Shown here piece by piece: positions 1-51,435 of a stretch of DNA of 64,000 nt. A program made the translations under genes and the position numbers. The stretch covers positions 41,871-105,870 of the IMG/VR virus record IMGVR_UViG_3300032249_000373; one strand, given 5' to 3'. Under the pieces are notes generated by a model. The model saw nothing but the letters and a program-made list of their open reading frames with translations. It was not told the DNA's origin and searched no databases. Position 1 is the stretch's first letter; the number at the start of each line of letters is the position of its first letter. The stretch comes from a virus.

Positions 1-3000
1 AACTCGGTTAAGGGCATTCAGGTTCTTCGTAAAGGCTATCAGCAACTTGCAGCGGGATCAACTGATGCAGCATTAAAGACACAATATTTATCACAAGAAG
101 AATTAGAAAATATTTCTATAAGTAATGCTCTTTATTCTAAGCACCAACAACTCTCTTCAGCATATGCACTAGAAGCATCAGCGTTAGCATCACTAACAAG
201 TGTTTACTCTAAGGCTAACGCTTCTATGGGAGCCTTTGCAGCAAGTAATCCAGGAATGTTTATGCCAAGAGGAGGATTACTACTTCCAAAGAAATTTGCG
301 GGAGGAACAACATCTGTTCCAGGACCAAAGGGAGCAGGAGATGTAATTCCAGCAATGCTATCACCTGGAGAATCCGTTATTCCAGTAAAGCAAACACAAA
401 AGTATTCAGGGTTTATTAATCAGATTATTCAAGACAAGGTTCCAGGATTTTTTGCTGGAAGAGTTGGAGCCTTGCCATCATCTCCAAATATTGTAAGAGG
501 CTCATCTGCAAGAGGACCTATTGGACCTATGGCTCCAGTTATTCCAATTGGAGCAAGGCCAATTTCACCATCACTCCCTGGAATTAGGTATTCTCAAGAA
601 GGAGACAAGGTTCGTGTTTTTGCTGGTGATACATCTTTCCTAATTCCACTAAAAGATATTAGTACATTTAAAGTTAAACTTGAAGAAAATGAAGCATGGA
701 TGAAGTCACCAATCCATGGAAGTGGAAATAAAAATGTAAGAAAAGATAATACAGAACAAGCACTAATTAAAGCAATTACAAGACCACTAAGTGGAGGTAA
801 AAAGCCTTCACTACGTGAACAATCAGAAATTATTAAACCAGGAGATATATATACTCGTCTTCCAAAAGCAGGTGCACAAAGAAAGAGTAATCAAAACCAA
901 GATATTGCAGATAAGAGATTTAGGGCATTAGTTAAATCAAAAAATCCTCATCTTGCAAAACTACAAAATTATTTACAAAATGAAGAAAAGGTTTATCTTG
1001 AAAGAGTATTAGGTCCAGATGTTGTACAGTCTTTAAAGGGTTTTGATGCTAAGAAACTAACCCCAAGTCACATTAGAGAAGTGAGATCTCAGAATCGCAC
1101 ACCTGAAGATTGGGCACCAAGTAAAATTGCAAGAGACTGGGCATGGTTTAACTCTGCACTAAGAGGAACTAAATTTGGAAAAGTTAAGGGTGGGCATCCA
1201 GTAAATGCTGCACAAGCAAGAGAACTTCTTGATAATCTAAAAATGACTCCATTTGAAAACCTTCCAAATGATAAAAAGGCTCTTCAAACTGTACTTGAAT
1301 ATAGATTAAATCGCCAACCTTCATATTACGATGACTTTAGATTTATAGACAATGCAATGATGAAGGTTAATCCAGTAAAGTTGGCTGGTGGAGTTGTTTC
1401 TCTTGGAATGCCAATTCCATTTAAAAAGGTACAAGCACAACGTGCAATGGCAGAAAAAATAGATGCACAAATTAAGGAAAGTAGATTTAAGAATCTTCCT
1501 GTTACAGACACTGGAAGAAAAATACAAAAACTTGGTGGATTTAGCGTTGGTTCAATTTCAAGAGCGGTCAATGGAGTTTATCAATTACCAAATGGTAGAA
1601 CTGTAGTTTACAAGGCTGTAGAAAGTGAAGAGGCTGCTTTAGCAGAAATGCGAATGTCTACCTTAATGAGAAAGGGTAGCGAACTTGATACTCCATCAAA
1701 TCAATCAATTAAGGTTATTGCAGATCCAACAGACTTAAGTAAACAAAGAAAAGTCCTTGTTATTGAATCAGACTATAACCCAAGATTTGCTAATCCAACT
1801 GGAGAGTTTACACCAAAACAATTTATTAAACAAACCCTAGCCTCTGGTATTCGTGGAGATAAGGATCTTAAGACAGACAATGTTAGTGGTAACGATGTAG
1901 TAGATATGAGTAATGCTGGAGTATTCCCGACTGCATCAAATAGAGTTAAATATGCAGATGAGATGAAGTCAGTAGAAGAGCAACTTTTAATAAACTTTGG
2001 AGCAGTAAAGGGTGGAGCATCAAAAGACTTTTCAAGATCTGTTCAAGGAATTGCTGCAGAAATGGGTTTTACAAAATTTAAAAACGCAATGCTTAAAGAA
2101 ATTGAAGAATCTATTCCTAGATATAAAGCAACAATTGATACATTTAAGTTAAACCCAAGAGAAAGAGAACTTTACGATGCTGTAGTTGCTCGTTTAGAAG
2201 ATGCTAAAAAAGCAGACTGGAAGAAGATTTACAATGCTGCTGTTGGTGATATTCCAGCATATGCAAATGGAATTGTTTCAGTCCCTGGCCCAAAGGGTGC
2301 TGGAGATATTCAGCCTGCAATGCTTTCACCAGGTGAAGCGGTAATTCCTGCAAAACAATCTGAAAAGTATATGCCACTTATTCGTTCAATGATTGCAGAT
2401 AATGTTCCTGGGTATGAAGCATCAAATGTTGAATGGGATGGTAGCCCAAGATCACTAAGACCAGGTGGAAAATATGCAGGACCAACTCCTACACCAGGTA
2501 TGGATTCTTGGGGAGATCCAATTAAAGAACCTACACCAACAAAGACAAGATTAAAAAATGCAATTACTTCAGTTGTAAGAGACAAAGATATTAATGCAGT
2601 TAAAAACTTTGCAGCAGAAGCAACAAAGGCTGGTAAAGAAACCAAAATTGCAGGAAAAGCAATGGAAGGTGTAAGAAAGGCTGGCTCTCGTGTTACAGCA
2701 TCCTTTACTGGTACTGAAAAAGCAGTAGATGGAACAACGGATGCACTTGGAAAAGATAAGACTCGTGGATTCCGTGGATTTTTATCAGGGTACGGAAACG
2801 TATCTCAAACAGTTACAAATGAAGATGGAACTACAAGAGCAGCAACCGCTGCAGAGCGCACCAATGCACGTCAAATGAACAGAATGAACTTTACACAAAA
2901 GATGATGCCTATGCAGATGGCTGGAATGATGATTCCAATGGCTGCAGGTATGGTTGCTCAAAAAAATCCAGATGGTGCTATAGCAAAGAACATGGATGCA

Positions 3001-6000
3001 ATTATGATGTTGTCTATGTTAACCATGCTTTTGCCAATGCTTAATAGTCCACTTAAATTACTTGCAGCAACTGCAGTTGGTCTTACTATTGTGTTTAAGA
3101 TGCAGTCAGCAGCAATTAAAAAGAATATGATTGAAGGACAAAAGCAAGCAGAAGCAATGAGCATGACAACCAAAAATCTTGAAGAACTTGGCAAGATCAC
3201 TGGAAGAGTTTCTATAACTCAAACTGCTGCAGCAAAAAGAGCAGGAAGAAACACTGATATTTCTCCAGTAAGCATGGACTTTGGATCTAATATTATATCT
3301 AGTAGCGAATTTGGCAAAAACCTTAAAAAGACATTTAATAGCGCAATAGTAGACCTAGGAGAAGGAGCAGCAGTTAACTCACTAGTTAATCAACTAGGAA
3401 CTGCAGTATCTCAAGGAGTTTTAAATTCAGAGCAAGCACAATCAATTGCGATTGCACTTACAAGAGATTTAAAAGATGCAAGACTTGAGGTTAATGTAAG
3501 AGGAAGATTAATTCAACTTCTTGGTCCTAATGGAAAAAATGTTTTAGATAATCCACTACAAGTACAACTTGAATTAGTTACCACTGGAGAAAAGGTAGCA
3601 CAGGCTGCAATTGAAAACCTTAATAAAGTTGCAAGACAACAAAAGGGTATTAATACTATAGGAGAAGGTTTACAACTAGCAGGAGGAACAGTTGGCGGTG
3701 CTTTAATTGGAGCAAGAGCAGGAAGCCAAGCAGCAAGTATGGTTGCTGGAAGAGGATTAATTGCACAAGAAATGGCAATGACTGGCGCTAAGGGTGCAGG
3801 AGTTCTAGGCAGAGTAGCATCAGGAGTAAGAGTAGCACGAACTGCAGGACTTGTTGCTAGTGGAGCAGCAACGGCAACAGGAGTTGGAGCACCTTTTGGA
3901 GCAGTTGGTGCAGCAATTACAGCAGTTATTACTGGCGGTATTGATCTAGCAATTAGAAACTGGCAAAAGGGTAAAGAAAAAGCAGTAATAGCAAAAGCAG
4001 CAGGTGTAGTTCAAGGACTTGTTTCACAAAATATAACTGCTTCACAAGGAAGTATAGACGCATTAACCTCAATCTTTGATACATCAATTGCAAATCTTGA
4101 GTTAAAGAAAAAGACTTTAAAGACAGACAAAGAACGAGCAGCAGTTGATTTAGAAATTGCTGGACTAGAATCTAAAAAGCAGTCTGGTCTACAAACATTA
4201 AGACAAAAACAAGCAAAGATGCTTGAAGATGTTTCTTCAAACTATGATCAAGTTTCAGGTGCAGACTTTCTTGAAAAAATTAGTCCATTTGGTTCTGGCC
4301 GTGGACAAGTTCGTGATAAATATATGGAAGCATTTGCAGTTGGAATGCAAGATAAGTTTAAAGATAATGCACCACTTAAAGCACAGGCTGCAGCGCTTCA
4401 GTCACAACTTGACCAAATTGGTGATGATAAGGTAACACTTGAGATTTCAACCTTAGTTACTTCAGATGTTTTAACTCCTGGCGAGGCATCTGTATTAGTT
4501 AGCACTTTAACCAAGACTGGCGGAGACATAAAGAAAAATCTAAATGCACTTGTGTCAGTTCAAGGAACAGAAGGCGTTCAAAGATTATCTACAATTCTAA
4601 CAATGCTTCCCAATGAAGATAATCAAAAGACCCTTGTTCTTGCTGTTAGAAACCTAAATAAAGCAGATGCAGATGCAACATTTAGTTCAATAGAAGAACT
4701 TGGAAAAATTCCAGATTATATTGGAATTAAGTTAGAAATTGAAACAGAAAAAAATGATCTGCCAAGAATTAAAGCACGAGGAAAAGAAATTGAAGCACTT
4801 AAAAAGCAATTCCCTAATGGACAAGTTACACTTAAGACTCTTGTTAAGATGCAAGAAGAAGCAGGTGGAGTTGGTAAAAACCTTACTCTAGATTCTGCAA
4901 TCAAGCAGTGGAGCGAGATAAGCAAACTTGATAAGAATGTTCAACTTCAAGCAATTTTAACTATTGGTTCTATTGAATATAGCGATAGTTTTGATAAAAT
5001 ATTAGATAGAGAATTAGAGGCTGACTTCTTAGAAAGAAACCCTAAATTCCGTGCAACTGCTGGAAGAAGCAGAACTGGTGAAAGATTAGCAACTACAAAG
5101 GTAGATCCAAAGGAAAAAGCAAAAGCCCTTGCAGAATTTAAAAAGAATGCAACAAATATAGAAAAAGCAAAAACAGAAGCACTAAATAAAATAAGAGAAG
5201 AACTTTTCCCAACAGCCCCTGTTAGTGGAGCAGTTGTTCCTGGCGCTACAACTCCAAAGGGTGATGGCCCAACAAGAGATGATTCATTCCTAAACGATCT
5301 TGCTCAAAGACTTAAGTTAGTTAAAGAGGGTGGATTCAATGCTCTTAAGCCATTAGAATCTTTAAGAAAATTCCTTAAGGATGGCGGTAAGGATTCAATA
5401 AACCCAGGCCTTGATGCACAGGCTGGAGCAATTAAACAAATAGAATCAGCAGCAAAGACTGCTGGAATTTCTATTGATAAAGACTTCATGGAAATTATTA
5501 GAGGCTTAGATGCAGAACAGTTTAAGTTGTGGTCAGAAACATTATTTGACATTGGCAAGAATGGAAGAATAACAGCGCTAAAGGATGACTTTGTAACCAT
5601 TAATGAAGGATTCCGCAAAGCAACAATTGGTGGATATATTCAAGATGTAAAGGATGCAAGTAAAGAAATTGAAAACCAAGTTACAGCGCATCAACTTTTA
5701 ACAAAAGAAGGATATAACTCACTTGAAATTCAAAAGATATTACAGAACGCAACTCTAACTGCAAAGATTGCTGCACAAGGAGGACTAAAAGCCACTAAGG
5801 AAGAACAAGCAGAGTTAAACAAAGAAATAGAAAAGACTATTAATCTTAATTATCAACTAAGTATGACTAAACTTGGTGATAATATTTCAGAGACAAAGAT
5901 GCAGGTTGAGGCATTTAAGAGGCTTACTGCTGCTGGGGTAAAGCATGAAGTTATTCTTGAAATATTAAAGGATAAGAATAATGCTTTTGCAATTGCTTCA

Positions 6001-7836
6001 GCCGATGCAACTGTAAATACTAAAGATAAGTTTGGTGATTTAATAAATAAGACTAAGGAGTATTCTGATCTTCTTGAGTTAATTGCAAAACAAACAAAAA
6101 CTTTTGAACAAAAAACACAAGATGCTATTGATGCAAACATTGGTGCACTTGACCTACAGGCTAAGACATTACAGAATCAGTTTGATTTAGCAAACTTTGA
6201 ATTAAAGGCAAAGATAGTTGTTGCAGAAGATGCTGTTCAAAAGGTAAATGATGATATTCAAAAACAGCAAGATAAGATTGATAAGATTAATTTTGAACTT
6301 AAGTACGACTCAAAGATTGGTCAAAATCTTCTTGATGACATCCAGGAAAATATTAACGATGCCCAAAGAAAAATGGAGATTGATTTTGATAGACCACTTC
6401 AGGCATTGTCTGATAGATCAGCGGTATTGTCAAATGACCTAACTTTAATTGATAAGGCTACAGAAGCAATCAATGAGAAATATGATGCTCAAGAAAAGGC
6501 ATTACAGACAATATCTGAACTTAATCAAGAAATTGCTGCACAAGAGCAAAAGAGAATTTCTCTTGCTGACGCATTGTCTCAGGGTGACATCTCTGCAGCA
6601 GCACAACTAGCAAATGAAATGAGATCTACTGCAGCAGATGCAGCAAATCGTAGATCTGGAGAATTTCTTGCAGCAGCAAGAAAGGCTGAAACAGAGGCCC
6701 TTGTATCTTCAAGTGGTATGACAAAGGCACAAATTGAAGCAGAACAGTTTAGAATTAGCCAGCAGTCTTATGCTCTTGAACAACAAAGAAAAACTATTCA
6801 ATCACAGATTCTTTCATTAGAGGATCAAGTTTATAATATAACAGAATTAAGAGAAGTAAAACTTTTAGCAATTAGAGATGTTGAAACTGTAATTGATGGA
6901 ATTAAGGCAAATCAATTATTTAATGCACAACAAGTATTAGATAGATTACAGAATGAACTTGATGCTAATCAAAAAATACTTGATGCAAAACTTCTTGCAA
7001 TTGATAAAGAAAAACTAGGATGGGAATCTATACAGATTCAACTTGATGCTTATAAACTTAAGTTAGAAGAAATTAATAATGGCCCACTTAAGACTATGAA
7101 AGATATTGTTAATTCAATCACTGCAGCACTTTCACAAATTAATAATGCTAAGTATTCACCAACAAGTCCATTTGTCCCACCTGCTGCAAGTACTGCAACA
7201 CCTGCACAGGTTACAGCAGCAACTGATGCAGCAAACGCAGCAGCAGATGCATCTGACGCAGCAAACAAAAAGGCAGAAGAAGAATTAAATGCACAACTTG
7301 CAGCACAAGCAAAGGCTGATGCCGAAGCAGCAGCAACAAGTGCAGCACTAAAGAAAGCAATAGAAGATGCAAAGAAAGCAATTGCAGATGCAGCAAAGGC
7401 AGGAGAGCCAGCATCCAAGGCCTACATGGCTCAACAAAAAGCAGAGCAAGAGAGACTTTTAGCAATTGAAAAGCAAAAAGCACAATATGCAGCAATGGCA
7501 GCAGGATATGCATCAAGAGGTCGGCAGGCAGGCTATGCAAGTGGTGGAATGGTCAAGCCTAAGTATTTTGCGGTAGGTGGAAAAGCAAGAGGAACCGATA
7601 TTATTCCAGCAATGCTTACCCCTGGCGAATTCGTAATGAGTAAATATGCAGTTGACTCATATGGTGTTGATAAAATGAAGGCTATTAATTCTGGCTCATA
7701 CGAAGGCGAGAAGGTGTATAATTATAATCTAAACGTCAATGTTAAATCTGATGCAAATCCAGAGGATATTGCAAGAGTTGTTATGACACAAATTAGACAA
7801 GTTGACTCACAGAGAATTAGGACACAGAGGGGCTAA
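1..7836 (+). CDS. Tail tape measure protein, 5' end outside window
   Basis: The reading frame is open from base 1, so the true start lies upstream; at least 2,611 residues are present. Tape measure proteins fill the tail tube and set its length. Visible parts: a first GAGD..PAMLSPGE motif (about 330-375), a kinase-like segment (about 1530-2250, see findings), a second PAMLSPGE motif (2300-2350), hydrophobic Met-rich stretches (2900-3100) that could span a membrane during ejection, Gly/Ala-rich helices (3670-3960), a long coiled-coil region (about 6060-7100), an Ala-rich stretch, and a C-terminal PAMLTPGE copy (7600-7640) of the kind often seen near tape-measure ends. At roughly 1.5 angstrom per residue the tail would be about 390 nm if all residues counted, which they may not. 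It directly abuts the next tail gene. Confidence 0.93.
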   Translation, partial: NSVKGIQVLRKGYQQLAAGSTDAALKTQYLSQEELENISISNALYSKHQQLSSAYALEASALASLTSVYSKANASMGAFAASNPGMFMPRGGLLLPKKFAGGTTSVPGPKGAGDVIPAMLSPGESVIPVKQTQKYSGFINQIIQDKVPGFFAGRVGALPSSPNIVRGSSARGPIGPMAPVIPIGARPISPSLPGIRYSQEGDKVRVFAGDTSFLIPLKDISTFKVKLEENEAWMKSPIHGSGNKNVRKDNTEQALIKAITRPLSGGKKPSLREQSEIIKPGDIYTRLPKAGAQRKSNQNQDIADKRFRALVKSKNPHLAKLQNYLQNEEKVYLERVLGPDVVQSLKGFDAKKLTPSHIREVRSQNRTPEDWAPSKIARDWAWFNSALRGTKFGKVKGGHPVNAAQARELLDNLKMTPFENLPNDKKALQTVLEYRLNRQPSYYDDFRFIDNAMMKVNPVKLAGGVVSLGMPIPFKKVQAQRAMAEKIDAQIKESRFKNLPVTDTGRKIQKLGGFSVGSISRAVNGVYQLPNGRTVVYKAVESEEAALAEMRMSTLMRKGSELDTPSNQSIKVIADPTDLSKQRKVLVIESDYNPRFANPTGEFTPKQFIKQTLASGIRGDKDLKTDNVSGNDVVDMSNAGVFPTASNRVKYADEMKSVEEQLLINFGAVKGGASKDFSRSVQGIAAEMGFTKFKNAMLKEIEESIPRYKATIDTFKLNPRERELYDAVVARLEDAKKADWKKIYNAAVGDIPAYANGIVSVPGPKGAGDIQPAMLSPGEAVIPAKQSEKYMPLIRSMIADNVPGYEASNVEWDGSPRSLRPGGKYAGPTPTPGMDSWGDPIKEPTPTKTRLKNAITSVVRDKDINAVKNFAAEATKAGKETKIAGKAMEGVRKAGSRVTASFTGTEKAVDGTTDALGKDKTRGFRGFLSGYGNVSQTVTNEDGTTRAATAAERTNARQMNRMNFTQKMMPMQMAGMMIPMAAGMVAQKNPDGAIAKNMDAIMMLSMLTMLLPMLNSPLKLLAATAVGLTIVFKMQSAAIKKNMIEGQKQAEAMSMTTKNLEELGKITGRVSITQTAAAKRAGRNTDISPVSMDFGSNIISSSEFGKNLKKTFNSAIVDLGEGAAVNSLVNQLGTAVSQGVLNSEQAQSIAIALTRDLKDARLEVNVRGRLIQLLGPNGKNVLDNPLQVQLELVTTGEKVAQAAIENLNKVARQQKGINTIGEGLQLAGGTVGGALIGARAGSQAASMVAGRGLIAQEMAMTGAKGAGVLGRVASGVRVARTAGLVASGAATATGVGAPFGAVGAAITAVITGGIDLAIRNWQKGKEKAVIAKAAGVVQGLVSQNITASQGSIDALTSIFDTSIANLELKKKTLKTDKERAAVDLEIAGLESKKQSGLQTLRQKQAKMLEDVSSNYDQVSGADFLEKISPFGSGRGQVRDKYMEAFAVGMQDKFKDNAPLKAQAAALQSQLDQIGDDKVTLEISTLVTSDVLTPGEASVLVSTLTKTGGDIKKNLNALVSVQGTEGVQRLSTILTMLPNEDNQKTLVLAVRNLNKADADATFSSIEELGKIPDYIGIKLEIETEKNDLPRIKARGKEIEALKKQFPNGQVTLKTLVKMQEEAGGVGKNLTLDSAIKQWSEISKLDKNVQLQAILTIGSIEYSDSFDKILDRELEADFLERNPKFRATAGRSRTGERLATTKVDPKEKAKALAEFKKNATNIEKAKTEALNKIREELFPTAPVSGAVVPGATTPKGDGPTRDDSFLNDLAQRLKLVKEGGFNALKPLESLRKFLKDGGKDSINPGLDAQAGAIKQIESAAKTAGISIDKDFMEIIRGLDAEQFKLWSETLFDIGKNGRITALKDDFVTINEGFRKATIGGYIQDVKDASKEIENQVTAHQLLTKEGYNSLEIQKILQNATLTAKIAAQGGLKATKEEQAELNKEIEKTINLNYQLSMTKLGDNISETKMQVEAFKRLTAAGVKHEVILEILKDKNNAFAIASADATVNTKDKFGDLINKTKEYSDLLELIAKQTKTFEQKTQDAIDANIGALDLQAKTLQNQFDLANFELKAKIVVAEDAVQKVNDDIQKQQDKIDKINFELKYDSKIGQNLLDDIQENINDAQRKMEIDFDRPLQALSDRSAVLSNDLTLIDKATEAINEKYDAQEKALQTISELNQEIAAQEQKRISLADALSQGDISAAAQLANEMRSTAADAANRRSGEFLAAARKAETEALVSSSGMTKAQIEAEQFRISQQSYALEQQRKTIQSQILSLEDQVYNITELREVKLLAIRDVETVIDGIKANQLFNAQQVLDRLQNELDANQKILDAKLLAIDKEKLGWESIQIQLDAYKLKLEEINNGPLKTMKDIVNSITAALSQINNAKYSPTSPFVPPAASTATPAQVTAATDAANAAADASDAANKKAEEELNAQLAAQAKADAEAAATSAALKKAIEDAKKAIADAAKAGEPASKAYMAQQKAEQERLLAIEKQKAQYAAMAAGYASRGRQAGYASGGMVKPKYFAVGGKARGTDIIPAMLTPGEFVMSKYAVDSYGVDKMKAINSGSYEGEKVYNYNLNVNVKSDANPEDIARVVMTQIRQVDSQRIRTQRG

Positions 7837-8472: not shown

Positions 8473-11400
8473 ATGTTTGTTAGTGAGACATTAAAGACAC
8501 ATTTAGAAACATCTTCAACAGTACACTTACAGTCATTAGTTTTGGCTGAGTGGAATATGAATATGCCAGATAATATATTTAAACTTGGAAACTACAGATA
8601 TAGACCAACTGGATCAGATGTTCAATACCGAACACTTCCTTTAACATTTGATAGCCTAGATGAAGGAAATTACTATACAGGTGCAACAGATGCCGATGTT
8701 GTTGTAGATGGAGGGTTTGATAACTCTGGAGTCCCACAACTTTTTACATCAACTAAAGAAAAAATGAAAATGATATATTCTTTAGAAGACTGTGTAAAAC
8801 CTTTTAGGCCAAGATCTGGAATTAACAAGGCATCATATTTTGGCAATAAATATTTTGCAAACTCTGGTGTATCTCTTGCAGAAAGACCAAGATACTACAT
8901 GGCCTCAAGATATGACCAGTTTAAATATTGGTCATCATTTAGAACAGAGAATAATACTGAAAGAGGAATTGCAAAGAATGTATCTAATGGATTAAATTAT
9001 ATTGATGATGCTGTTCCTTTTGTAGTTTATAAGGAAAAGGTTCCAGCAAACAGACTTGTAGTAAAAATGCAAACAAATGTTGGAACTGCAGACCTTGGAA
9101 ATTTTATAAAAGATGGAAAAGTTTTTTCAGATCCGCTATACGGTACAACAAATAAAACAACTCCAATTAGATGGAAGATTCAATACCTGAATGAAGACAA
9201 TTGGGTTGATGCTTATTCTTTTGACGAAAATTCTGTTCGTGATGGCGGATCTCCAATTATTCCAGAAGATGGTTATGTTGAATTAGAATACGGATTAAAA
9301 ATTCCAGATGCATATAAGGATTCATATACCTTTATTGAAAAAATAGCATCTATAACACTATTGCCAGAGCAGTCGTTAAATGGAGATGGCTATCTCGTTG
9401 TTGAAAATACCAATGATCGTGGAACCTTGTATATTTGGAATGGTCTGGATGAAGAGTACGACTCTTTTGTTCCTGAGTATGGATGGATGCTTGGAACTGG
9501 AGTTTTAAACCGTTCATCAAAACTTATTACAGACCTAACAAGCCCAGATCTATTTACTAATGATGCACAAAACCAGACTACATATAGAGAATTTGCATAT
9601 CTTCGTGGCATAAGAGTTGTTGCAGAAACAATGAACAAATTTGATTCAACCTTTGATTTAATTGAGATGTCTCCTAGACTAATTGTAAATATATCAGACA
9701 AGGTTGTTGATTTTAATATTAAGAAGATTTTATCTGACATAGGAACTACATCTCTTCCAGTTGGACAGTTGCTTGCGTCTACTGGAACCCTATCTCTTTT
9801 TGACGACGATCAAGCATTTAATGAAAACAACACATCTAGTGTTGTTGCTAAATATATTAGAAAAAATATAAAGTTTCTTTTTTATGAATCAATCTTAGAT
9901 GTTGCAGGAGATGAGTATTCAGTTCCAATTAAAACCTTATACTCAGAAGGATTTCCTCAAGCAGATGTAACTGCAGCAAAGTTGTCAATAGAGTTAAGGG
10001 ACTTTTATTTCTTTTTAGAATCAATGCCTGCTCCTAGACTCCTTACAACACAGACATCATTAAGTTATGCAATATCAATGCTTCTTGATTACGTTGGATT
10101 TAGCAACTATACATTTAAACGTGTAGCAGATGAGTCAGATCCCATAATTCCATATTTTTTTGTTGCTCCAGATCAAAATGTTGCAGAAGTTTTAAATCAA
10201 TTAGCGGTATCAACTCAAAGTGCAATGTTCTTTGATGAATACAACAACTTTGTTGTAATGAGTAAAGATTATTTAATGCCAACGGCAACTCAGAGAGAAA
10301 TAGATTTTGTTTTATCTGGATCAAATAATCAAACTGACTCTGGCGTTGTAGAAAATTCTACTTCTGGAAATCTTCCTAATATTATTGCTATCGCATCACA
10401 AGATAAAAAGATTTATAATGATGGAAAAATTAACTACACAACTAGATATATTCAAAGATCTTACGGATCAATACGCCAATCAACAATGATTGATAAAGAA
10501 AAAACTTGGATATATAAGCCATCTCTTTTATGGGAAGTTGCAGGAACAGAAAATACAAAAACAATAAACGAACTTGCTTCAAGGCAGGGGAGTTATGTAT
10601 TAGGGGCAATGCCATTAAACTCAGACCTAGTTGGAACGGCACCAGTTGTAGCAGGAAATGTTCTTACAAATAATATAATTGATCTTGGAGAAAATGTTTA
10701 TTGGCTAACAAGATATAACGGATACCTATACTCTAATGGAGAGGTAATTAGATATGATGCTTCAGAGTTTGATATCACTGGAATTGGCAAGGTTTGGATT
10801 AGCAGCAATCAAGAATATCAAAAGTATTTTTCATCAATACCGTTTAACGGTAAGATATATCCTACGGGACTTGTAAGAATTTATGCAACACCAAACTATG
10901 AAACAGTAGATGGAATAACAAGACTACAGAACGGTGCTGTTGTTGACCATGGACGTGGACAGTTTGGAACTCAGATAGTTTCACATTCTGCTGGAATAAA
11001 TAATTATTGGACAAATAACGATAATGTTCGTGGATTAAACATGAAGTCTCAGTATCTATTTAGTACAAAGTTAGATACTGATCTTGCCTCTACACTTCCT
11101 GCAACTACTGTTGCAGCAGCAGGAGTAAGCAATGCAGTTGCAAAACAATCAACAAGAAACAGCATTATAAAGAATTTTATGGCTACAAGTTATTTAAGTG
11201 AAACAGAAGTAAATAATTTACCATCAACCCAAACAGGAACAATTCAGTCATCAGCATTGGTTTTTAATGGTCCATCATTTAAGACAACAGAAACTCCACT
11301 AAACTTTGTATCTTATGTATACAAAAATTTAGATAATGCCTATAGGCATTTTGGAACAAGGCTAAGAATTATTGGCAAAATTGAAAACAATACAACTAGA

Positions 11401-12795
11401 ACACAGTCTCCAAATGGAAGCGTTACGTACTATCAGTTATCTGGAAACCAACCAGACCAGAATATAAATATAGGTGGTGGTTCTGGAGGACTAGCATTTT
11501 TGTTAAATCCAGAAACAAACAATGGATATTACTTTGAAATTGTTGCACTTACTGAAGATAATATAAACTCATATCTTAAGGTTGATGAAAATAATAATGC
11601 ACAATTTTCAGTAAATAACGTTGTATTCTATAAAATTAAAAAAGACTCTTCAAACTCAGATGCAATACCAGTAAAACTTTGGGGAGGACTATCAAAGATT
11701 ATTGTTGATGATGGAAAGTTTACTGGTCAGCAAAGACTTGCGGGAGAAGAAAATTCAACGGTATATGATTTATCAGTAGAATATATTGACATAGGTAATA
11801 CTAGAAGATTCTATCTATATATAAATAACCAATTAATAAAGGTTGTAGACGATACAGATCCTTTGCCAACATATAATAATATGGCTTTATTTGTGCGTGG
11901 ATCATCAAAGTGTATGTTTGAAAATATATACGCTCTATCTAAAAACTACAGCCAAAACACAGTGTTTACTGTAAATGAAACTTTGGGTCAGGTGTTTGGA
12001 GATAAAGAGATTGATGTTACAGAATCCTTTAGAAAGTATGCAATGAGCGGTGTTGTTCAGTCAACATATCTATCTGGAATTAGTGCACAGCAACCACCAA
12101 AGTATGACATGTATTTTGAAGAGTTTGGTTCTATTATGCGTGAATGTGAATATTTTGACATTAAGTATGATCGTGCATACCCAGCACTTTACGCAAAACT
12201 TTCACCAACATTTAATAATATAAAAGGATACACAACATCTGGATTTTATGCAGACTCATATGGTGCAGAATTTTTAATATTTAATTCAACAGACAAAGCC
12301 TTAAACCTAGATGAAACAACTGGAAACTTTTTAAGAATTCAGGGAATTACATTTACACAAGATACAACGCATGAACTAACCGTAGATGAATTCTTCAAGA
12401 AACGTGGCAATCTATCTGACCCAGAACTAGTTGGAAGCACACTAACATACTCTCCATTGGTTGAAAAATCAAGATATGATGAAATAAAGTTAAGTAGACT
12501 AACATATGGAAAAAATGAGTTTAGTATTGATAGTCCTTATATTCAAACACAAGATGATGCAGATGCAATGATGAACTGGATTATAAATAAGTTAATGGTG
12601 CCTAAAAAATCTGTTGGAATGAACATATTTAGCATTCCAACTTTACAACTTGGAGACATCGTAACGATAAACTACAAAGATTCTTCTGGTTTAGATTTAG
12701 TTTCTAAAGATTCTTCTAGGTTTGTAGTTTATAATATAGAGTATCAAAGATCAGAAAGTGGACCAAACATGACAATCTATTTGAGTGAGGTTTAA
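8473..12795 (+). CDS. Large tail hub / minor tail protein with lectin-like region
   Basis: 1,440 residues. The C-terminus (about 1350-1440) carries the pattern PTLQLGDIVTINY followed by a beta-rich end, which resembles the end of baseplate hub proteins where a GD.V turn is common. Residues about 930-1160 read like a concanavalin/LamG-type beta sandwich (GGSGGLAFLL, YYFEIVAL, RRFYLYINNQ), suggesting a sugar-binding insertion. It is in a gapless operon after the Dit-like gene. Likely role: hub at the tail tip that joins the tube to receptor-binding parts. Domain calls are from memory of family patterns. Confidence 0.65.
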   Translation: MFVSETLKTHLETSSTVHLQSLVLAEWNMNMPDNIFKLGNYRYRPTGSDVQYRTLPLTFDSLDEGNYYTGATDADVVVDGGFDNSGVPQLFTSTKEKMKMIYSLEDCVKPFRPRSGINKASYFGNKYFANSGVSLAERPRYYMASRYDQFKYWSSFRTENNTERGIAKNVSNGLNYIDDAVPFVVYKEKVPANRLVVKMQTNVGTADLGNFIKDGKVFSDPLYGTTNKTTPIRWKIQYLNEDNWVDAYSFDENSVRDGGSPIIPEDGYVELEYGLKIPDAYKDSYTFIEKIASITLLPEQSLNGDGYLVVENTNDRGTLYIWNGLDEEYDSFVPEYGWMLGTGVLNRSSKLITDLTSPDLFTNDAQNQTTYREFAYLRGIRVVAETMNKFDSTFDLIEMSPRLIVNISDKVVDFNIKKILSDIGTTSLPVGQLLASTGTLSLFDDDQAFNENNTSSVVAKYIRKNIKFLFYESILDVAGDEYSVPIKTLYSEGFPQADVTAAKLSIELRDFYFFLESMPAPRLLTTQTSLSYAISMLLDYVGFSNYTFKRVADESDPIIPYFFVAPDQNVAEVLNQLAVSTQSAMFFDEYNNFVVMSKDYLMPTATQREIDFVLSGSNNQTDSGVVENSTSGNLPNIIAIASQDKKIYNDGKINYTTRYIQRSYGSIRQSTMIDKEKTWIYKPSLLWEVAGTENTKTINELASRQGSYVLGAMPLNSDLVGTAPVVAGNVLTNNIIDLGENVYWLTRYNGYLYSNGEVIRYDASEFDITGIGKVWISSNQEYQKYFSSIPFNGKIYPTGLVRIYATPNYETVDGITRLQNGAVVDHGRGQFGTQIVSHSAGINNYWTNNDNVRGLNMKSQYLFSTKLDTDLASTLPATTVAAAGVSNAVAKQSTRNSIIKNFMATSYLSETEVNNLPSTQTGTIQSSALVFNGPSFKTTETPLNFVSYVYKNLDNAYRHFGTRLRIIGKIENNTTRTQSPNGSVTYYQLSGNQPDQNINIGGGSGGLAFLLNPETNNGYYFEIVALTEDNINSYLKVDENNNAQFSVNNVVFYKIKKDSSNSDAIPVKLWGGLSKIIVDDGKFTGQQRLAGEENSTVYDLSVEYIDIGNTRRFYLYINNQLIKVVDDTDPLPTYNNMALFVRGSSKCMFENIYALSKNYSQNTVFTVNETLGQVFGDKEIDVTESFRKYAMSGVVQSTYLSGISAQQPPKYDMYFEEFGSIMRECEYFDIKYDRAYPALYAKLSPTFNNIKGYTTSGFYADSYGAEFLIFNSTDKALNLDETTGNFLRIQGITFTQDTTHELTVDEFFKKRGNLSDPELVGSTLTYSPLVEKSRYDEIKLSRLTYGKNEFSIDSPYIQTQDDADAMMNWIINKLMVPKKSVGMNIFSIPTLQLGDIVTINYKDSSGLDLVSKDSSRFVVYNIEYQRSESGPNMTIYLSEV

Positions 12796-19354: not shown

Positions 19355-22300
19355 ATGAACTACGTAGGCTTACACGTACATACCCATTACTCACTATTTG
19401 ACGGCGTAGCAACTCCAAAAGAGTATGTTGACCGTGCTAGTGCTTTAGGCATGCCAGCAATCGCAATCACAGACCATGGTACGTTGTCTGGTCATCGTGA
19501 GATGTATCGCATGGCTAAAGAAAAGGGTATTAAGCCAATTCTAGGTCTAGAAGGATATATGTGTGCAGACATATCTGATACAAGAGATAAGTCTGAAAGA
19601 GAAGGTCAACAAGATCTTGTCTATAACCACATTATCCTTCTAGCCAAGAATAAACTAGGTTTAGAAAACCTTAACAAGATTAGTGAATTATCATGGACAG
19701 ATGGTTTCTTTAAGAAGCCAAGGTTTGATTTTGATATTCTACAAAAGTATCGTGAAGGTATTATTGTAACTTCTGCTTGTCCAAGCAGTGTTATTGTTAA
19801 AGCATTAGAAGAAGAAGAGTTTGCTCTTGCCAAGAAGTATATTCAGTGGTTTAAAGATAACTTTGGTAGTGACTACTACATTGAAGTAATGCCACACAAT
19901 GATGCACAAATAAACAAATACCTAATAGAACTTGCAGATGAGTTTAGTATCAAGGTTGTTGTTACCCCAGATTGTCACCATGTTGATCAGTCACAAAGAG
20001 AAGTTCAAGAGTTTAAGTTGTTACTTAACACACATGGGAAAGTAAACAAAGAAGCAACATATGAAAAGTCAAAGAAGCAACCAGATATGATGAAACGACT
20101 TGACTATCTATATGGAGAAGATCGCCAGATAACATTTAATAAATTTGATATCCACTTATTGTCTTATGAAGAGATGAAGGCAGCGATGGAATTGCAGGGT
20201 ATTGACAGACCTGATATCTATGCTAACACACTACTATTAGCAGATACAGTAGAAGACTATGAGATACAAGATGGACTAAACTTATTGCCAGTTCAATATA
20301 AAAGCCCAGATAAGGAACTTGCTAAGATTGCTCTAGAAGGTTTGCAGTTAAAGGGTTTGTCAGAAAATAAAGAATATCTAGATAGGCTTGACGAAGAACT
20401 AAAGATTATTAAAGATAAAAAGTTTGCACCATACTTCCTTGTTGTTCAAAGCATGATTTCTTGGGCTAAGAAGGAAGGAATTATGGTTGGTCCTGGTCGT
20501 GGATCTGCTGCTGGTTCATTGGTTTGTTACTCACTTGGAATTACAGATATTGATCCAATTAAGTATGGTCTTCTGTTCTTCCGATTTATTAATCCAGAAC
20601 GTAATGACTTTCCAGATATTGATACAGATATTCAAGATAACAGACGTGATGAAGTTAAAGACTATCTTGTTAGACAATATAGACACGTTGCATCTATTGC
20701 AACATTCCTTGAATTTAAAGACAAGGGTGTTGTGCGAGATGTAGCCAGAGTTTTAGATATTCCATTAACAGATGTAAACAAGGTTTTAAAGTTGGTAGAT
20801 ACTTGGGATGAATATTGTTCATCAAGGACTGCTGCTTGGTTTAGAGAAAAGTATCCAGAGGTGGAGGTTTATGGTGAACAATTACGTGGTCGTATTCGTG
20901 GTACTGGTATACACGCTGCTGGTGTGGTCACTAGCAAAGATCCGATTTTTAGGTTTGCTCCAATGGAAACGAGATCTAGTCCTGGGTCTGATGAACGTAT
21001 ACCTGTGGTTGGTGTCGACATGGAAGAGGCTGAACGCATCGGGCTTATAAAAATTGACGCACTTGGTCTTAAAACATTAAGTGTTATTCAAGATGCAGTT
21101 GCAATGATTAAAGAAAATCATTACAAGGATATTGATTTAGATTCTCTTGATCTTGCAGATGCAAAGGTTTACGAAATGCTTTCAGATGGATATACAAAGG
21201 GTGTATTTCAGTGTGAAGCAACACCTTACACAAATCTTTTAGTTAAGATGGGTGTTAAGAATTTTAATGAACTTGCCGCATCAAATGCATTGGTTCGTCC
21301 TGGTGCTATGAATACTATTGGTAAAGATTATATTGCTCGTAAACATGGCAAGCAAAATGTATCTTATACGCACCAGATTATGAAAGAGTTTACGGAGGAT
21401 ACTTATGGCTGTGTTCTTTACCAAGAGCAAGTTATGCAAGCATGCGTACACCTTGGACAAATGTCCATGTCGGAAGCAGATAAAGTTAGAAAAATCATTG
21501 GAAAGAAAAAAGATGCTAAAGAGTTTGATGTATACAAAGAGCAGTTTGTCAAAGGTGCTTCTGCCTATATTACTCCCAATCAGGCTCTTGATCTATGGCA
21601 TGACTTTGAAGCGCATGCGGGATACTCATTCAACAAGTCTCATGCGGTTGCTTACTCTACGCTCTCGTATTGGACGGCGTGGTTAAAGTATTACTACCCT
21701 CTTGAGTTTATGTTTGCATTGCTTAAGAATGAGAAAGACAAGGATGGTCGTACAGAATATCTAATTGAGGCAAAGCGTATGGGTATTCCTATTAAACTTC
21801 CTCATATTAATGACTCTGACTTTGATTTTAAAATTGAGGGTAAGGGAATCAGGTTTGGATTAACTGGTATTAAGTTTATATCAACAAATATTGCAGAAAA
21901 GTATATTGCTGCTAGACCATTTAAGTCATACAAAGAACTTGAAGAGTTTACTTTTACAAAAGGCAATGGAGTAAATAGTCGTGCACTTAATGCTTTACGT
22001 GTAATAGGTGCTGCAACTTTTGCTGATCAACCAAGAAATGATGCTGAGATTAAAGAAAATCTATATGAATACTTAAACCTTCCAGAATTCAATATTACAA
22101 TCCCTTCTCATTATTATGCATTTATTCAGGATGTAGATTCATTTGAGGAAAAGGGATCTTTTATTCTTATGGGAATGGTTAAGGCAATTAAAAGAGGAAC
22201 GGGATGGTCACGAATTGAAATTTTGGACAAGACTGGTAGTGTTGGCATATTTGATGAAGAATCTACGATTATTGAAACTGGTCGTACTTATCTTGTTCTT

Positions 22301-22630
22301 GCAAATGATAATAGGATTGTGTCTGCAATACCTGTTGACGAGATAAAAGGATCTCCTAATGCTCTTGTAAAGTTTTTAAGTTATAAGCAATTGCCTTATT
22401 CTGAAGAAGAAATGTTTGTTGTTTCTTTTAAGCCAAGAATGACAAAGGCTGGAAAGAAAATGGCTTCTTTAACCTTAGCAGATACAAGTAGAGAACTTCA
22501 CTCTGTAACTGTATTTCCTACCGCATTTCCTAGAGCATACATGCATATTGAAGAGGGCAAGGCTTACAAGTTTAGTTTTGGCAAAACAAAAGATGGAACA
22601 GTAACATTGGAGGATGTATATGTCAGTTAG
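19355..22630 (+). CDS. dnaE: DNA polymerase III alpha subunit
   Basis: 1,091 residues, a near full-length DnaE. The N-terminal PHP domain has HVHTHYSLFDG and AITDHGTL, so its metal-binding histidines look retained and proofreading is possible. The polymerase core shows GPGRGSAAGSLVCYSLGI and PDIDTDIQDNRRDEV (two catalytic Asp), with a third Asp in IKIDALGLKTL. A finger/HhH region and an OB-like C-terminal part follow. Having its own C-family polymerase makes the phage largely independent of the host replicase. Confidence 0.95.
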   Translation: MNYVGLHVHTHYSLFDGVATPKEYVDRASALGMPAIAITDHGTLSGHREMYRMAKEKGIKPILGLEGYMCADISDTRDKSEREGQQDLVYNHIILLAKNKLGLENLNKISELSWTDGFFKKPRFDFDILQKYREGIIVTSACPSSVIVKALEEEEFALAKKYIQWFKDNFGSDYYIEVMPHNDAQINKYLIELADEFSIKVVVTPDCHHVDQSQREVQEFKLLLNTHGKVNKEATYEKSKKQPDMMKRLDYLYGEDRQITFNKFDIHLLSYEEMKAAMELQGIDRPDIYANTLLLADTVEDYEIQDGLNLLPVQYKSPDKELAKIALEGLQLKGLSENKEYLDRLDEELKIIKDKKFAPYFLVVQSMISWAKKEGIMVGPGRGSAAGSLVCYSLGITDIDPIKYGLLFFRFINPERNDFPDIDTDIQDNRRDEVKDYLVRQYRHVASIATFLEFKDKGVVRDVARVLDIPLTDVNKVLKLVDTWDEYCSSRTAAWFREKYPEVEVYGEQLRGRIRGTGIHAAGVVTSKDPIFRFAPMETRSSPGSDERIPVVGVDMEEAERIGLIKIDALGLKTLSVIQDAVAMIKENHYKDIDLDSLDLADAKVYEMLSDGYTKGVFQCEATPYTNLLVKMGVKNFNELAASNALVRPGAMNTIGKDYIARKHGKQNVSYTHQIMKEFTEDTYGCVLYQEQVMQACVHLGQMSMSEADKVRKIIGKKKDAKEFDVYKEQFVKGASAYITPNQALDLWHDFEAHAGYSFNKSHAVAYSTLSYWTAWLKYYYPLEFMFALLKNEKDKDGRTEYLIEAKRMGIPIKLPHINDSDFDFKIEGKGIRFGLTGIKFISTNIAEKYIAARPFKSYKELEEFTFTKGNGVNSRALNALRVIGAATFADQPRNDAEIKENLYEYLNLPEFNITIPSHYYAFIQDVDSFEEKGSFILMGMVKAIKRGTGWSRIEILDKTGSVGIFDEESTIIETGRTYLVLANDNRIVSAIPVDEIKGSPNALVKFLSYKQLPYSEEEMFVVSFKPRMTKAGKKMASLTLADTSRELHSVTVFPTAFPRAYMHIEEGKAYKFSFGKTKDGTVTLEDVYVS

Positions 22631-30988: not shown

Positions 30989-33187
30989 TTGAATAAACTC
31001 TTGCGTATATTTACAGTTTTATTACTTGCTTTTGGATGGTTATTTATAGCACCAACAGAGGCTAATTCTGACGACCCTCTAACAGTTGCAGCCCAAAAGA
31101 TTCAAAACCTTAATAGTGCAGTAGATAAATTAGACTACAAAGACGGTTTAATAGGCATGATTGACATAGCAGAGAACAAGTTTATGTATGCTAAAAATCT
31201 GCGGGATGTCAGAGACGCTGCTCAAGAAGACTATGAAGATGCAGTAGAAGCAGAGGAACTAGCCTTAGAAGAAGTAGACCTTGCCCAGTCCAATGTAGAT
31301 GGCCAAACAGTAACAGTAGAACTTGCCTTTGACCACAAAGAAGATGCTCTTCAAGAAAAGAATGATGCACAGGATGCTCTCAGCATAGCCAACATTAATC
31401 TACAAACAGCACAGTCAAATATGCAGTCTGCTGGAGGACAAGGTTTATCTTATACTGTTTATCATCTAGCAAGATCATTTGGTGGAGTAGCAGTACCCAG
31501 CGGGGTAATCTGTTCTGGTAATTGGAACTCAAACTCTATGCAACTTCCAGTTTGTGGAAACAGATATGAAAACTTTATAGTTAAATTTACTGGACAGATA
31601 ACAGTTCCAGAATGGTTCACATCAACAAAATTTGCAGGATATACAGATGATGGTTTTAGGATGTATATTGACGGAGCATTAGTTATTAATAACTGGGTTG
31701 AGCAAGGAGCAACATGGAGTCAATACTCTCCAGTATATGATGTAAACACAGATAAAACATTTGATGTAGAAATTTGGTGGTATAACGGTGGAGGACCAGG
31801 ATCTTATCATCTTGGATGGGGAATACCATATGATTCATCTGGAAGTTTAGGTTGGACTGGTGCAGGTTGCGACTATGCTGGAAATCCAAGAGTGTGGGGA
31901 CAAAACTTTAGTTGTAATCTTGATACATTTTCTTCTGGATCTGGACCAACACAAGCACAAACAGATTCATATAATCAAGCACTTGCTACAAAGGCTTCAG
32001 CACAACAAGATTATAACAATGCGTTATCAGAATACAATGACAAACTAAATGTTTATAATCAAGAGGTCGCAACACTAAATTCATTAAATCAAACATTAAC
32101 CAATAAAGAATCTGAGTATGATAACGCAGTAAATGATACAGCAGATGCTTTGTCTGAAAATAACAATGCCATAAATGATTTTAATAATGCAGTCAATGAT
32201 GTCAATGGTGCAATTGATAACGCATGGCGTTACTATGATGAACAATCGCAAAGAGAAATTCAAAGAGCAATTGCACAGGCTGCAGCAGCAGCCGCAAATC
32301 AACCTAAGCCAGAGCCATCTACAAAGCCAACTGTTGAACCAGAAAAGCCAAAGCCTTCTCCCCCACCAACAGATAAGCCAGAGCCAAAACCAACTAATAA
32401 TACTGCTACAGAAGAGCCAGGTCCAAAGCCTACACAGCCAGGACCAAAGCCTACACAACCAGGTCCAAAGCCAGAGCCACCAAAAGAAGAACCTAAGCCT
32501 GAGCCAACAAAGCCAGAAGAACCTAAGCCTACACCTGCACCAACGCCTGAACCAAAGCCAGAGCCTACACCAGGGCCTTCTGTTGAGCCTTCTCCAGAGC
32601 CTAAGCCACTCTCAAGACCAGACTTTAAGCCAGCAGAAAATATTGATCCAGTTATCAAGGATGCTGAGTTAGCAGCACTTATTCCACAAAAGGGTACAGG
32701 AAACTCAGAAGATTTATCTGGAGTTATTGCAAACCTTACAAGCAAGGATAATAAATTAGTTAAACTTTCTGTAGAACAAACAGCAGCAGTAAGCCAAACA
32801 CTTAAGTCTTTGACTCAAGAAGCAAAGCAAGAAGTTGCAGCAGACCTTGGAATTTCTACAGCAGAAGTTGCAAAGGTGGCAGAGGCAATGAAATCAGATC
32901 CTGCAGTTGCTGCAGCATTTGTTGAGTTCGCAGATAGAGCAGGGGATGCAGGAGATACCCCAATGCCATTTACACTAGCAGACGCAACTACAGAAGTACA
33001 AACAGAAGAATTCTTAGCAGATCCACTTGGAGCAGTATTTGAAGTGGATGTTACAGAACTCCTATCCAATTTTTCTGAGTTGGGTATGGATATGACAGAT
33101 GATCAGAGAGAAAAAGCGCAAGAAGTAATTGTCCCAGTGGTCATTGCATCACAAATTGCGGCATCAGTAATAAGGAGAAATAAATGA
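30989..33187 (+). CDS. Secreted PA14-like, proline-rich protein
   Basis: 732 residues from TTG with AGAGGAGAG upstream. Signal peptide (about 1-25), coiled coil, then a PA14-type lectin region (about 150-300; FAGYTDDGFRMYIDGALVIN is the typical core), a second coiled coil, a Pro/Lys/Glu-rich linker with repeated PGPKPTQ units (about 430-545), and a helical C-terminal part ending in a hydrophobic helix and basic RRNK. This could tether a sugar-binding module at the envelope. It runs into the holin-like genes by an ATGA overlap, so expression with lysis genes is likely. Confidence 0.75.
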   Translation: MNKLLRIFTVLLLAFGWLFIAPTEANSDDPLTVAAQKIQNLNSAVDKLDYKDGLIGMIDIAENKFMYAKNLRDVRDAAQEDYEDAVEAEELALEEVDLAQSNVDGQTVTVELAFDHKEDALQEKNDAQDALSIANINLQTAQSNMQSAGGQGLSYTVYHLARSFGGVAVPSGVICSGNWNSNSMQLPVCGNRYENFIVKFTGQITVPEWFTSTKFAGYTDDGFRMYIDGALVINNWVEQGATWSQYSPVYDVNTDKTFDVEIWWYNGGGPGSYHLGWGIPYDSSGSLGWTGAGCDYAGNPRVWGQNFSCNLDTFSSGSGPTQAQTDSYNQALATKASAQQDYNNALSEYNDKLNVYNQEVATLNSLNQTLTNKESEYDNAVNDTADALSENNNAINDFNNAVNDVNGAIDNAWRYYDEQSQREIQRAIAQAAAAAANQPKPEPSTKPTVEPEKPKPSPPPTDKPEPKPTNNTATEEPGPKPTQPGPKPTQPGPKPEPPKEEPKPEPTKPEEPKPTPAPTPEPKPEPTPGPSVEPSPEPKPLSRPDFKPAENIDPVIKDAELAALIPQKGTGNSEDLSGVIANLTSKDNKLVKLSVEQTAAVSQTLKSLTQEAKQEVAADLGISTAEVAKVAEAMKSDPAVAAAFVEFADRAGDAGDTPMPFTLADATTEVQTEEFLADPLGAVFEVDVTELLSNFSELGMDMTDDQREKAQEVIVPVVIASQIAASVIRRNK

Positions 33188-33773: not shown

Positions 33774-34298
33774 ATGACTTGCATCGCTGTTGTACGCCAT
33801 GAAGATAAAGTTTATATGGCTGGAGATCGTGGAGCATCAGATGATGGAACCATCCTAGCACTTGAAGCACCAAAGGTTTGGAAGATAGGCCCATACTTAA
33901 TTGGGTATGCAGGTGCAATGGACGGAGAAAGAATCCGTTATAACTTTAAACCATCTGCACCTAATATTAAAGACACAGATAGATTTATGCAGACAAGGTT
34001 TGTTAAAGAACTAAAAGAATTTTATAACGAGTTCTGGGTAGACACATCTAAAGATGGAGACCTTGGTTTAATCATTTGTGTTCGTGGTCAAATCTATGAA
34101 CATAGTTCTGCAGATATGTCTTTATCTAAATATAACTTGCCATATTTGGCTATGGGTTCTGGAGCAGAGTATGCCTACGGTGTTTTATATGCAACAGATA
34201 AGCAGAAAAATGCAAGAAATAGAGTTATACAAGCAGTAAATGCTGCAATTAAATTTAATCCATCTTGCATGGGTCCAGTTGACATAGTGAGTCTTTAG
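33774..34298 (+). CDS. Proteasome/HslV-like Ntn hydrolase
   Basis: 174 residues. After Met removal Thr becomes residue 1; Asp17 (YMAGDRGAS) and Lys33 (APKVWKIG) fall exactly where proteasome beta subunits and HslV keep their catalytic Thr1, Asp17 and Lys33, and LIGYAGAMDG matches the following strand-loop. This predicts an active threonine peptidase. No ATPase partner gene is seen, so it may self-assemble, use a host unfoldase, or mature virion proteins. It has its own strong promoter and ribosome site and is followed by the carbamoyltransferase with a one-base overlap. Confidence 0.85.
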   Translation: MTCIAVVRHEDKVYMAGDRGASDDGTILALEAPKVWKIGPYLIGYAGAMDGERIRYNFKPSAPNIKDTDRFMQTRFVKELKEFYNEFWVDTSKDGDLGLIICVRGQIYEHSSADMSLSKYNLPYLAMGSGAEYAYGVLYATDKQKNARNRVIQAVNAAIKFNPSCMGPVDIVSL

Positions 34299-36832: not shown

Positions 36833-36905
36833 TGGTCTGTAACTCAGTTGGTAGAGTGCCGAACTGTTAATTCGGAAGTCGCAGGATCGTAGCCTGCCAG
36901 ACCAG
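36833..36905 (+). tRNA. tRNA-Asn (GTT)
   Basis: Full cloverleaf: acceptor TGGTCTG/CAGACCA, D stem ACTC/GAGT, anticodon stem CCGAA/TTCGG with loop CTGTTAA, T stem GCAGG/CCTGC. The T loop is ATCGTAG, so positions 54 and 58 are A and T instead of T and A. No CCA encoded. Confidence 0.9.
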
Positions 36906-36910
36906 CAAAA

Positions 36911-36984
36911 GCGAGTGTTGCATAATGGTAGTGCTTCTGCCTTCCAAGCAGATGGTGCCAGTTCAATTCTGGTCACTCGCTCCA
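36911..36984 (+). tRNA. tRNA-Gly (TCC)
   Basis: Acceptor GCGAGTG/CACTCGC, anticodon stem TCTGC/GCAGA with loop CTTCCAA, T loop TTCAATT. A genomic CCA follows the discriminator base. Confidence 0.92.
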
Positions 36985-36986
36985 CT

Positions 36987-37058
36987 GGCCCTATCTTCTA
37001 GTGGTTAGGATACCAGGCTTTCATCTTGGTGAGCAGAGTTCAATTCTCTGTAGGGCTA
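36987..37058 (+). tRNA. tRNA-Glu (TTC)
   Basis: Acceptor GGCCCTA/TAGGGCT, anticodon stem CCAGG/CTTGG with loop CTTTCAT, T stem CAGAG/CTCTG with loop TTCAATT. Two bases separate it from the CCA of tRNA-Gly. Confidence 0.92.
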
Positions 37059-37066
37059 CAAAAGTT

Positions 37067-41788: not shown

Positions 41789-41968
41789 ATGGAAGATTTA
41801 ACTATTGATGAATTAAGACAACTTTTGGCATTCTATAAACAAAGAGCGTCAGACGTAGAGTTTTCGTTATTACAGACGCAAATAAAACTAAATAAGTTTA
41901 TGTCTGCTCAATTAGTTTCAGATCAAAATGTTTCAAAAAAAGAAGCACCAGAAAAAACAACTAAATAA
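41789..41968 (+). CDS. Small coiled-coil protein
   Basis: 59 residues with AAGGGGG upstream; one amphipathic helix. Unknown function. Confidence 0.55.
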   Translation: MEDLTIDELRQLLAFYKQRASDVEFSLLQTQIKLNKFMSAQLVSDQNVSKKEAPEKTTK

Positions 41969-51283: not shown

Positions 51284-51284
51284 G

Positions 51285-51356
51285 CACGCCTAGAGGGATT
51301 TGAACCCCCGACAGTCTGGGTAGAAACCAGATACTCTTCCGCTGAGTTATAGGCGT
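51285..51356 (-). tRNA. tRNA-Arg (TCT)
   Basis: Acceptor ACGCCTA/TAGGCGT, anticodon stem TCTGG/CCAGA with loop TTTCTAC, T loop TTCAAAT. Reads AGA codons, frequent in AT-rich DNA. Confidence 0.92.
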
Positions 51357-51360
51357 TCAG

Positions 51361-51435
51361 TACACCAGGTAGGACTTGAACCTACGAATAGCCGAATTAT
51401 GAGTTCGGTGCCTTAACCAACTTGGCTACTGGTGC
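51361..51435 (-). tRNA. tRNA with CAT anticodon (Met or Ile2)
   Basis: Acceptor GCACCAG/CTGGTGT, anticodon stem CCGAA/TTCGG with loop CTCATAA, T stem GTAGG/CCTAC. The G-T first pair is unlike initiator tRNA. Elongator Met or lysidine-modified Ile cannot be told apart by eye. Confidence 0.9.

Follow-up and report, generated by a model that had tools for sequence, protein, structure and literature searches.

The tail tape measure protein of an uncultured freshwater phage (IMG/VR record IMGVR_UViG_3300032249_000373) carries an internal domain in which the catalytic residues of kinases occur in kinase order. Sequence comparisons and a predicted structure support treating this domain as a separate family of atypical kinases. 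In tape measures it comes and goes as an exchangeable cassette, and it is probably an active kinase that forms removable cargo of the tape measure, is ejected along with it and acts in the host. The window analyzed here is a stretch of 64,000 nucleotides (positions 41,871 to 105,870 of the record), and coordinates refer to this window unless the genome is named.

Tape measure gene and genome setting

The virus record is 105,870 bases long, and the window begins within the tape measure frame, an open frame of 3184 codons that starts 1719 bases ahead of the window (genome position 40152). The N-terminal part of the protein, which is encoded ahead of the window, matches PF10145 (E=2.9e-29), TIGR01760 (E=1e-34) and a PHROG tape measure family (E=2e-88). 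These family matches, the length of the frame and the tail gene downstream of it identify the product as a genuine tape measure of a phage tail. A preliminary description of this DNA, made from the letters alone, had placed a kinase-like domain within the tape measure, and the domain is indeed in the same frame as the PF10145/TIGR01760 N-terminal part. The features discussed below are as follows.

1..7836, + strand: 3' part of the tape measure gene (PF10145 and TIGR01760 on the N-terminal part; minor tail protein downstream)
295..453, + strand: boundary repeat, first copy (FAGGTTSVPGPKGAGDVIPAMLSPGESVIPVKQ...VPGFF), bounding the cargo slot on the left; also found at slot edges in related tape measures
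454..1380, + strand: upstream cargo domain without a family match, exchanged independently of the kinase
1381..1401, + strand: junction on the left of the cassette, LAGGVVS, which copies the boundary repeat in part
1402..2280, + strand: kinase cassette, with bounds from comparison with the kinase-less tape measure L034
1435..2244, + strand: predicted atypical kinase domain, 270 aa, from conservation and a model with pLDDT 92.7 and pTM 0.90
1612..1614, + strand: VVYK lysine (VAxK equivalent), kept in 132/132 readable distinct domains
1645..1647, + strand: helix-C glutamate (ALAE), kept in 134/134 readable domains
1858..1881, + strand: catalytic loop DKDLKTDN, with the first Asp at 1858, the catalytic Asp at 1864 and the Asn at 1879, each kept in 135/135 readable domains
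1903..1905, + strand: DFG-equivalent Asp, kept in 135/135 readable domains
2260..2415, + strand: boundary repeat, second copy (YANGIVSVPGPKGAGDIQPAMLSPGEAVIPAKQ...VPGY), bounding the cargo slot on the right; its identity to the first is 63% (E=1e-19)
7603..7638, + strand: core of a third repeat copy, IPAMLTPGEFVM, near the C-terminus (residue 3108 of the frame)
8473-12795: minor tail protein, downstream of the tape measure

The host of the phage is probably an actinobacterium because a DnaE-type polymerase encoded at 19355-22630 shares 54-55% identity with Streptomyces phage DnaE. Although this polymerase resembles those of Streptomyces phages, the G+C content of the window is only 36%. The phage encodes two Nol-like carbamoyltransferases (34298-35950 on the + strand and 51476-53134 on the - strand), which match PHROG 1601 with E-values of 6e-122 and 6e-152, respectively. 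Five tRNA genes are present, those for Asn, Gly and Glu at 36833-37059 and those for Arg and Met on the other strand at 51284-51435. A frame of 732 codons (30989-33187) has neither a PHROG match nor a relative in INPHARED.

Conservation of the active-site residues

Translation of frame 1 bore out the strings quoted in the preliminary description as well as the codons it gave for the Lys (1612), the catalytic Asp (1864), the Asn (1879) and the following Asp (1903). When residues are numbered from nucleotide 1399, these are K72, D156, N161 and D169, and the helix-C Glu at 1645 is E83. The Asn is located five residues past the second Asp of DKD, as in the D-L-K-x-x-N motif.

Among 76 distinct near-full-length domains, 29 of 268 alignment columns are fully invariant, and these include the Lys, the Glu, both Asp residues of DKD, the Asn and the Asp of DxG. 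With this proportion of invariant columns, the probability that four residues named from one sequence would all be invariant is about 1e-4. The largest set consisted of 136 distinct domains with identities down to about 30%. Throughout this set the VAxK-type Lys, the helix-C Glu, the catalytic Asp, the Asn at +5 and the DFG-type Asp follow one another in the kinase order, and there are no substitutions at the six positions (K, E, D, D, N and D), the only departures being gaps in cut sequences. The half of the set that came from a pattern scan is biased toward D, D and N by the pattern itself; the K, the E and the Asp of DxG lie outside the pattern. Lys, Asp and Asn, which had been picked out from a single copy, are kept without substitution in the homologous tape measures of this set. 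In view of the invariance of the catalytic residues, a chance motif was rejected, and likewise a degenerate pseudoenzyme. Pairwise dN/dS values among close copies of the domain are mostly 0.1-0.3.

Other parts of the motif set are less regular. The Gly-rich start noted earlier was only loosely right: the family pattern is G-x-S ... G-x-Y rather than GxGxxG. The Lys at D+2 of the catalytic loop varies across the family. DxG is found in 126 of 135 relatives, and the copy in the window has DMS instead.

Predicted structure and class assignment

With 10 close sequences AlphaFold2 gave a model of low confidence (pLDDT 63), which was superseded by one of 270 residues based on 59 diverse relatives (pLDDT 92.7, pTM 0.90). 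The N-lobe of the final model has three strands, the third of which ends in the Lys, followed by the helix with the Glu, two strands, a hinge and a helix, after which comes the catalytic loop. The C-lobe is predicted to be helical. In a Foldseek search against the PDB, the best 50 matches were all protein kinases, seven of them at E<0.001. The best E-value was for AAK1 (E 4e-5, probability 1.00), and Pto and GAK were also among the seven. The highest listed TM-score was for HipA (0.38), which had also been the top match of the weak first model. TM-scores to PDB kinases ranged from 0.23 to 0.38; because these are low, the C-lobe as modeled probably differs from that of known kinases, and the overall superposition is poor.

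The domain has no significant match in Pfam, PHROGs, NCBIfam or the PDB sequences, either as a single sequence or as a profile; matches to Kdo_hydroxy (E 0.15) and ribonucleotide reductase (E 0.86) were set aside as noise. None of the 59 family members has a Pfam match, PF07804 (HipA_C) included, and PF07804 is absent throughout the virus record. Membership in the HipA family was rejected, as a profile-profile comparison with a HipA alignment built here was not significant (P=0.26); the best aligned segment of this non-significant comparison sets the catalytic Asp and the Asn in register. The domain also lacks the marks of PI3/PI4 kinases, with no Pfam match and a loop of the form DKDLxxxN versus the DRH type. 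The marks of the kinases of polyvalent proteins are likewise absent: there is no Pfam match, the position two residues ahead of the catalytic Asp is an invariant Asp, and there is no insert.

The earlier assignment to an atypical kinase is supported, since no kinase family is matched by sequence, the whole-structure TM-scores are low and the structure matches are all kinases. The relation to HipA- or PI-kinase-like folds that had been suggested with it was not established, given the P of 0.26 for the HipA profile and best E-values that belong to eukaryotic Ser/Thr kinases. A profile search against kinase families, proposed at the same time, gave no family match by sequence, and it was the structure comparison that returned kinases throughout. 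It is very improbable that the resemblance to kinases is coincidental and that the domain has another fold. The missing family match and the low TM-scores would fit such a coincidence, which is already strongly opposed by the kinase order of the residues and their invariance in 136 domains, and by a confident model whose listed matches are all kinases. The modeling did not give a confident non-kinase fold; at pLDDT 92.7, the 50 top PDB matches of the model are kinases.

Some proteins with a kinase fold, such as SelO and SidJ, have other activities. The domain could accordingly bind ATP without transferring a phosphoryl group to another molecule, and serve as a trigger or a folding aid or carry out AMPylation or glutamylation. 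The apparently unusual C-lobe, the DMS in place of DxG in the window copy and the appearance of SidJ at rank 49 for the weak first model are in line with this reading, which is nevertheless improbable given that every residue for phosphotransfer is kept, the catalytic Asp included.

Among predicted viral structures, the best matches were proteins of uncultured Caudovirales (A0A6J5S481, A0A6J5PWC9 and A0A6J5MJB0) with portal, ADP-ribosyltransferase or PI3/4-kinase annotations. The first two have TM-scores of 0.53-0.55, the highest obtained for the domain. These proteins may perhaps carry the same type of domain. They differ in having portal or polyvalent-type rather than tape measure annotations, and the identity is 12-15% in a comparison made through predicted structures.

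Cargo slot and cassette exchange

The kinase domain and an unrelated domain upstream of it both lie between two copies of a boundary repeat that ends in PAMLSPGExVIP. The bounds of the cassette follow from a related tape measure (L034) that is 90% identical over 480 N-terminal residues and lacks the kinase, its upstream domain joining directly onto the second repeat (...NLASGIVSVPGPKG...). Because L034 is without the kinase at precisely this point, the cassette in the window is 1402-2280, between LAGGVVS and YANGIVS. Other close relatives differ in the cargo they carry. In two of them (L032 and L033) the N-terminal part is 94% identical and the kinase only 42-43% identical; in another (L010) the N-terminal part is 99% identical, the kinase 94% and the upstream domain 43%. 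In one tape measure (L144) two repeats enclose nothing but the kinase.

Another type of cargo accompanies the kinase in six tape measures (L159, L178, L181, L183, L186 and L187), which have a HAD acid-phosphatase domain in the same slot, downstream of the kinase, at about residues 1300-1560 of the tape measure frame. Five of these were recognized by PF03767 (E 3e-15 to 2e-17) and the sixth by a profile built here; there is also a weaker PNKP-phosphatase match. All of the HAD-bearing tape measures (6/6) have the kinase as well.

The version of the upstream cargo in one relative (L038:8319-9476) contains SHIVPRSQ...DNLIMDSNIVNESLKN and is HNH-nuclease-like by eye only. The upstream cargo in the window (454-1380) keeps the SH and few other residues of that version. 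The PAMLxPGE repeat is found at the edges of the cargo module (295-453 and 2260-2415) and at the C-terminus of the tape measure (7603-7638). Tape measures of Clavibacter and Stenotrophomonas phages match the C-terminal copy too, as does a cyanophage protein annotated as lysozyme.

Distribution of the domain

A first scan of IMG/VR found eight copies of the domain at 94-100% identity and three at 44-47% (one partial). Tape measures were also collected through their conserved N-terminal part, and a profile of the domain run against them picked up relatives down to about 30% identity. A scan seeded with the diverse domain alignment raised the count to at least 405 relatives in IMG/VR. The 80 of these that were examined are all in long frames, and the tape measure anchor is present in every one that has its 5' end. 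An independent scan with a degenerate DNA pattern for the catalytic loop gave 80 readable loci, all of the same family, and those with a 5' end are in tape measures with the sole exception of a 174-codon fragment (L254). In this fragment the kinase segment (L254:206-247) is in an isolated frame; the gene may be broken or wrongly assembled.

No relative was found in 84,980 prokaryote species genomes (GTDB) by two degenerate-pattern scans with a pre-filter that could miss distant ones, nor was there any relative of the cargo among INPHARED phages. Since the examined IMG/VR copies with a 5' end are, one fragment apart, in tape measures and none was found in these other collections, the family is phage-borne and confined to tape measures as far as seen. 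Sampling by the N-terminal part gave 69 tape measures, of which 19 have the kinase domain and 50 do not. The domain is dispensable for infection as such because about three-quarters of the sampled tape measures are without it.

Proposed role of the kinase cassette

From established tape measure biology, the protein would fill the tail tube, exit first and contact the inner membrane. A conserved, exchangeable enzyme within a tape measure would most simply be an effector delivered at entry, and delivery with the tape measure is plausible from what is known of tape measure biology. The kinase would travel unfolded or extended inside the tail tube, be ejected along with the tape measure as infection starts and refold at or within the host membrane. 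There it could use host ATP to phosphorylate a host target, which might favor phage take-over or blunt the host response. The most likely targets are host proteins, with lipids or nucleotides also possible; we infer the substrate, as we do activity and delivery. Cassette swapping suggests a target under selection from a host-phage arms race. Against the cargo-kinase reading are the low TM-scores to solved kinases, the lack of a significant sequence or profile match to a kinase family, the need for a domain of about 270 residues to cross the narrow tail tube and its absence from 50 of the 69 sampled tape measures.

Alternatively, the domain could be an active kinase that works in assembly or entry and not as a host-directed effector, for example by phosphorylating phage tail proteins or itself, or by modifying inositol lipids of the host membrane that the tape measure crosses. 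Actinobacteria have phosphatidylinositol lipids, and both the probable actinobacterial host and the fold relative annotated as a PI3/4-kinase would suit a lipid substrate. Tape measures are generally known to insert in the host membrane, and the catalytic residues would be invariant whatever the target. The lambda tape measure has been found at the inner membrane (PMC13190303), which is also in keeping with a role in entry. Frequent absence of the domain in close relatives fits poorly with a role in assembly, and a kinase of assembly or entry is unlikely overall, though less so than a kinase fold that transfers no phosphoryl group.

Comparison with known systems

MuF and polyvalent proteins deliver enzymes from the phage head. 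Kinases have been described in polyvalent proteins, which are large phage proteins with multiple domains and are presumably injected (Iyer et al. 2017, PMC5512222). Those kinases and the tape measure kinase have intact active-site residues in common, and those of Iyer et al. have a reduced C-terminal subdomain. The kinases of Iyer et al. come from (pro)phages of Verrucomicrobia/Chlamydia and of Bacteroidetes, where they are part of polyvalent proteins; in them a conserved His precedes the Asp, with an insert between the two, and a Glu precedes strand 2 (PMC5512222). By contrast, the domain described here is in tape measure proteins, has an Asp in place of the His and lacks a Pfam match. As in the HipA Ser/Thr kinases, the K, an ENE-type Glu, D-x4-N and a following Asp occur in the same order; unlike HipA, the domain is without the HipA N-terminal domain and has DKDLxxxN versus TDxHxKN. 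AAK1, GAK and eukaryotic-type Ser/Thr kinases gave the best Foldseek E-values (4e-5 to 1e-3), and the window copy has D-L-K-x-x-N as they do, but the C-lobe is probably not common to them (TM about 0.3), the Lys at D+2 is variable and there is no sequence match.

Actinobacterial contractile injection systems have effectors derived from tape measures with exchangeable domains (PMC13277306). Sle1 and the Tme effectors (PMC13277306, PMC11126660) resemble the present system in their tape-measure-like carrier, exchangeable functional domain and occurrence in actinobacteria. They belong to bacterial tail-like particles, with a C-terminal functional domain and no kinase, whereas the carrier here is a phage protein and the cargo is internal.

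In outline, phage kinases that are injected and tape measures that bear enzymes are each already known. What is new is an injected-type phage kinase on a new carrier, the tape measure, in a new sequence family, with a plausible delivery and a putative activity. No kinase in a tape measure is reported in the full-text literature that was searched, a body that takes in few subscription papers and no bioRxiv preprints. We give an even chance to the broader view that the tape measures of a large, probably actinobacterial group of freshwater phages are a polymorphic effector platform, in which kinase, HAD phosphatase and nuclease-like domains, loaded into a recombining slot flanked by PAMLxPGE repeats, would be injected at DNA entry. 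The presence, within the tail ruler protein, of catalytic residues that are unchanged in 136 of 136 variants suggests that many uncultured freshwater phages introduce a phosphorylating enzyme into bacteria at the onset of infection. The kinase cassette is common (at least 405 IMG/VR loci and 19 of 69 sampled tape measures). If it is active, the tail ruler would be a protein-injection device with exchangeable cargo, and the cassette would offer a direct handle on the effects of such phages on their hosts in the first minutes of infection.
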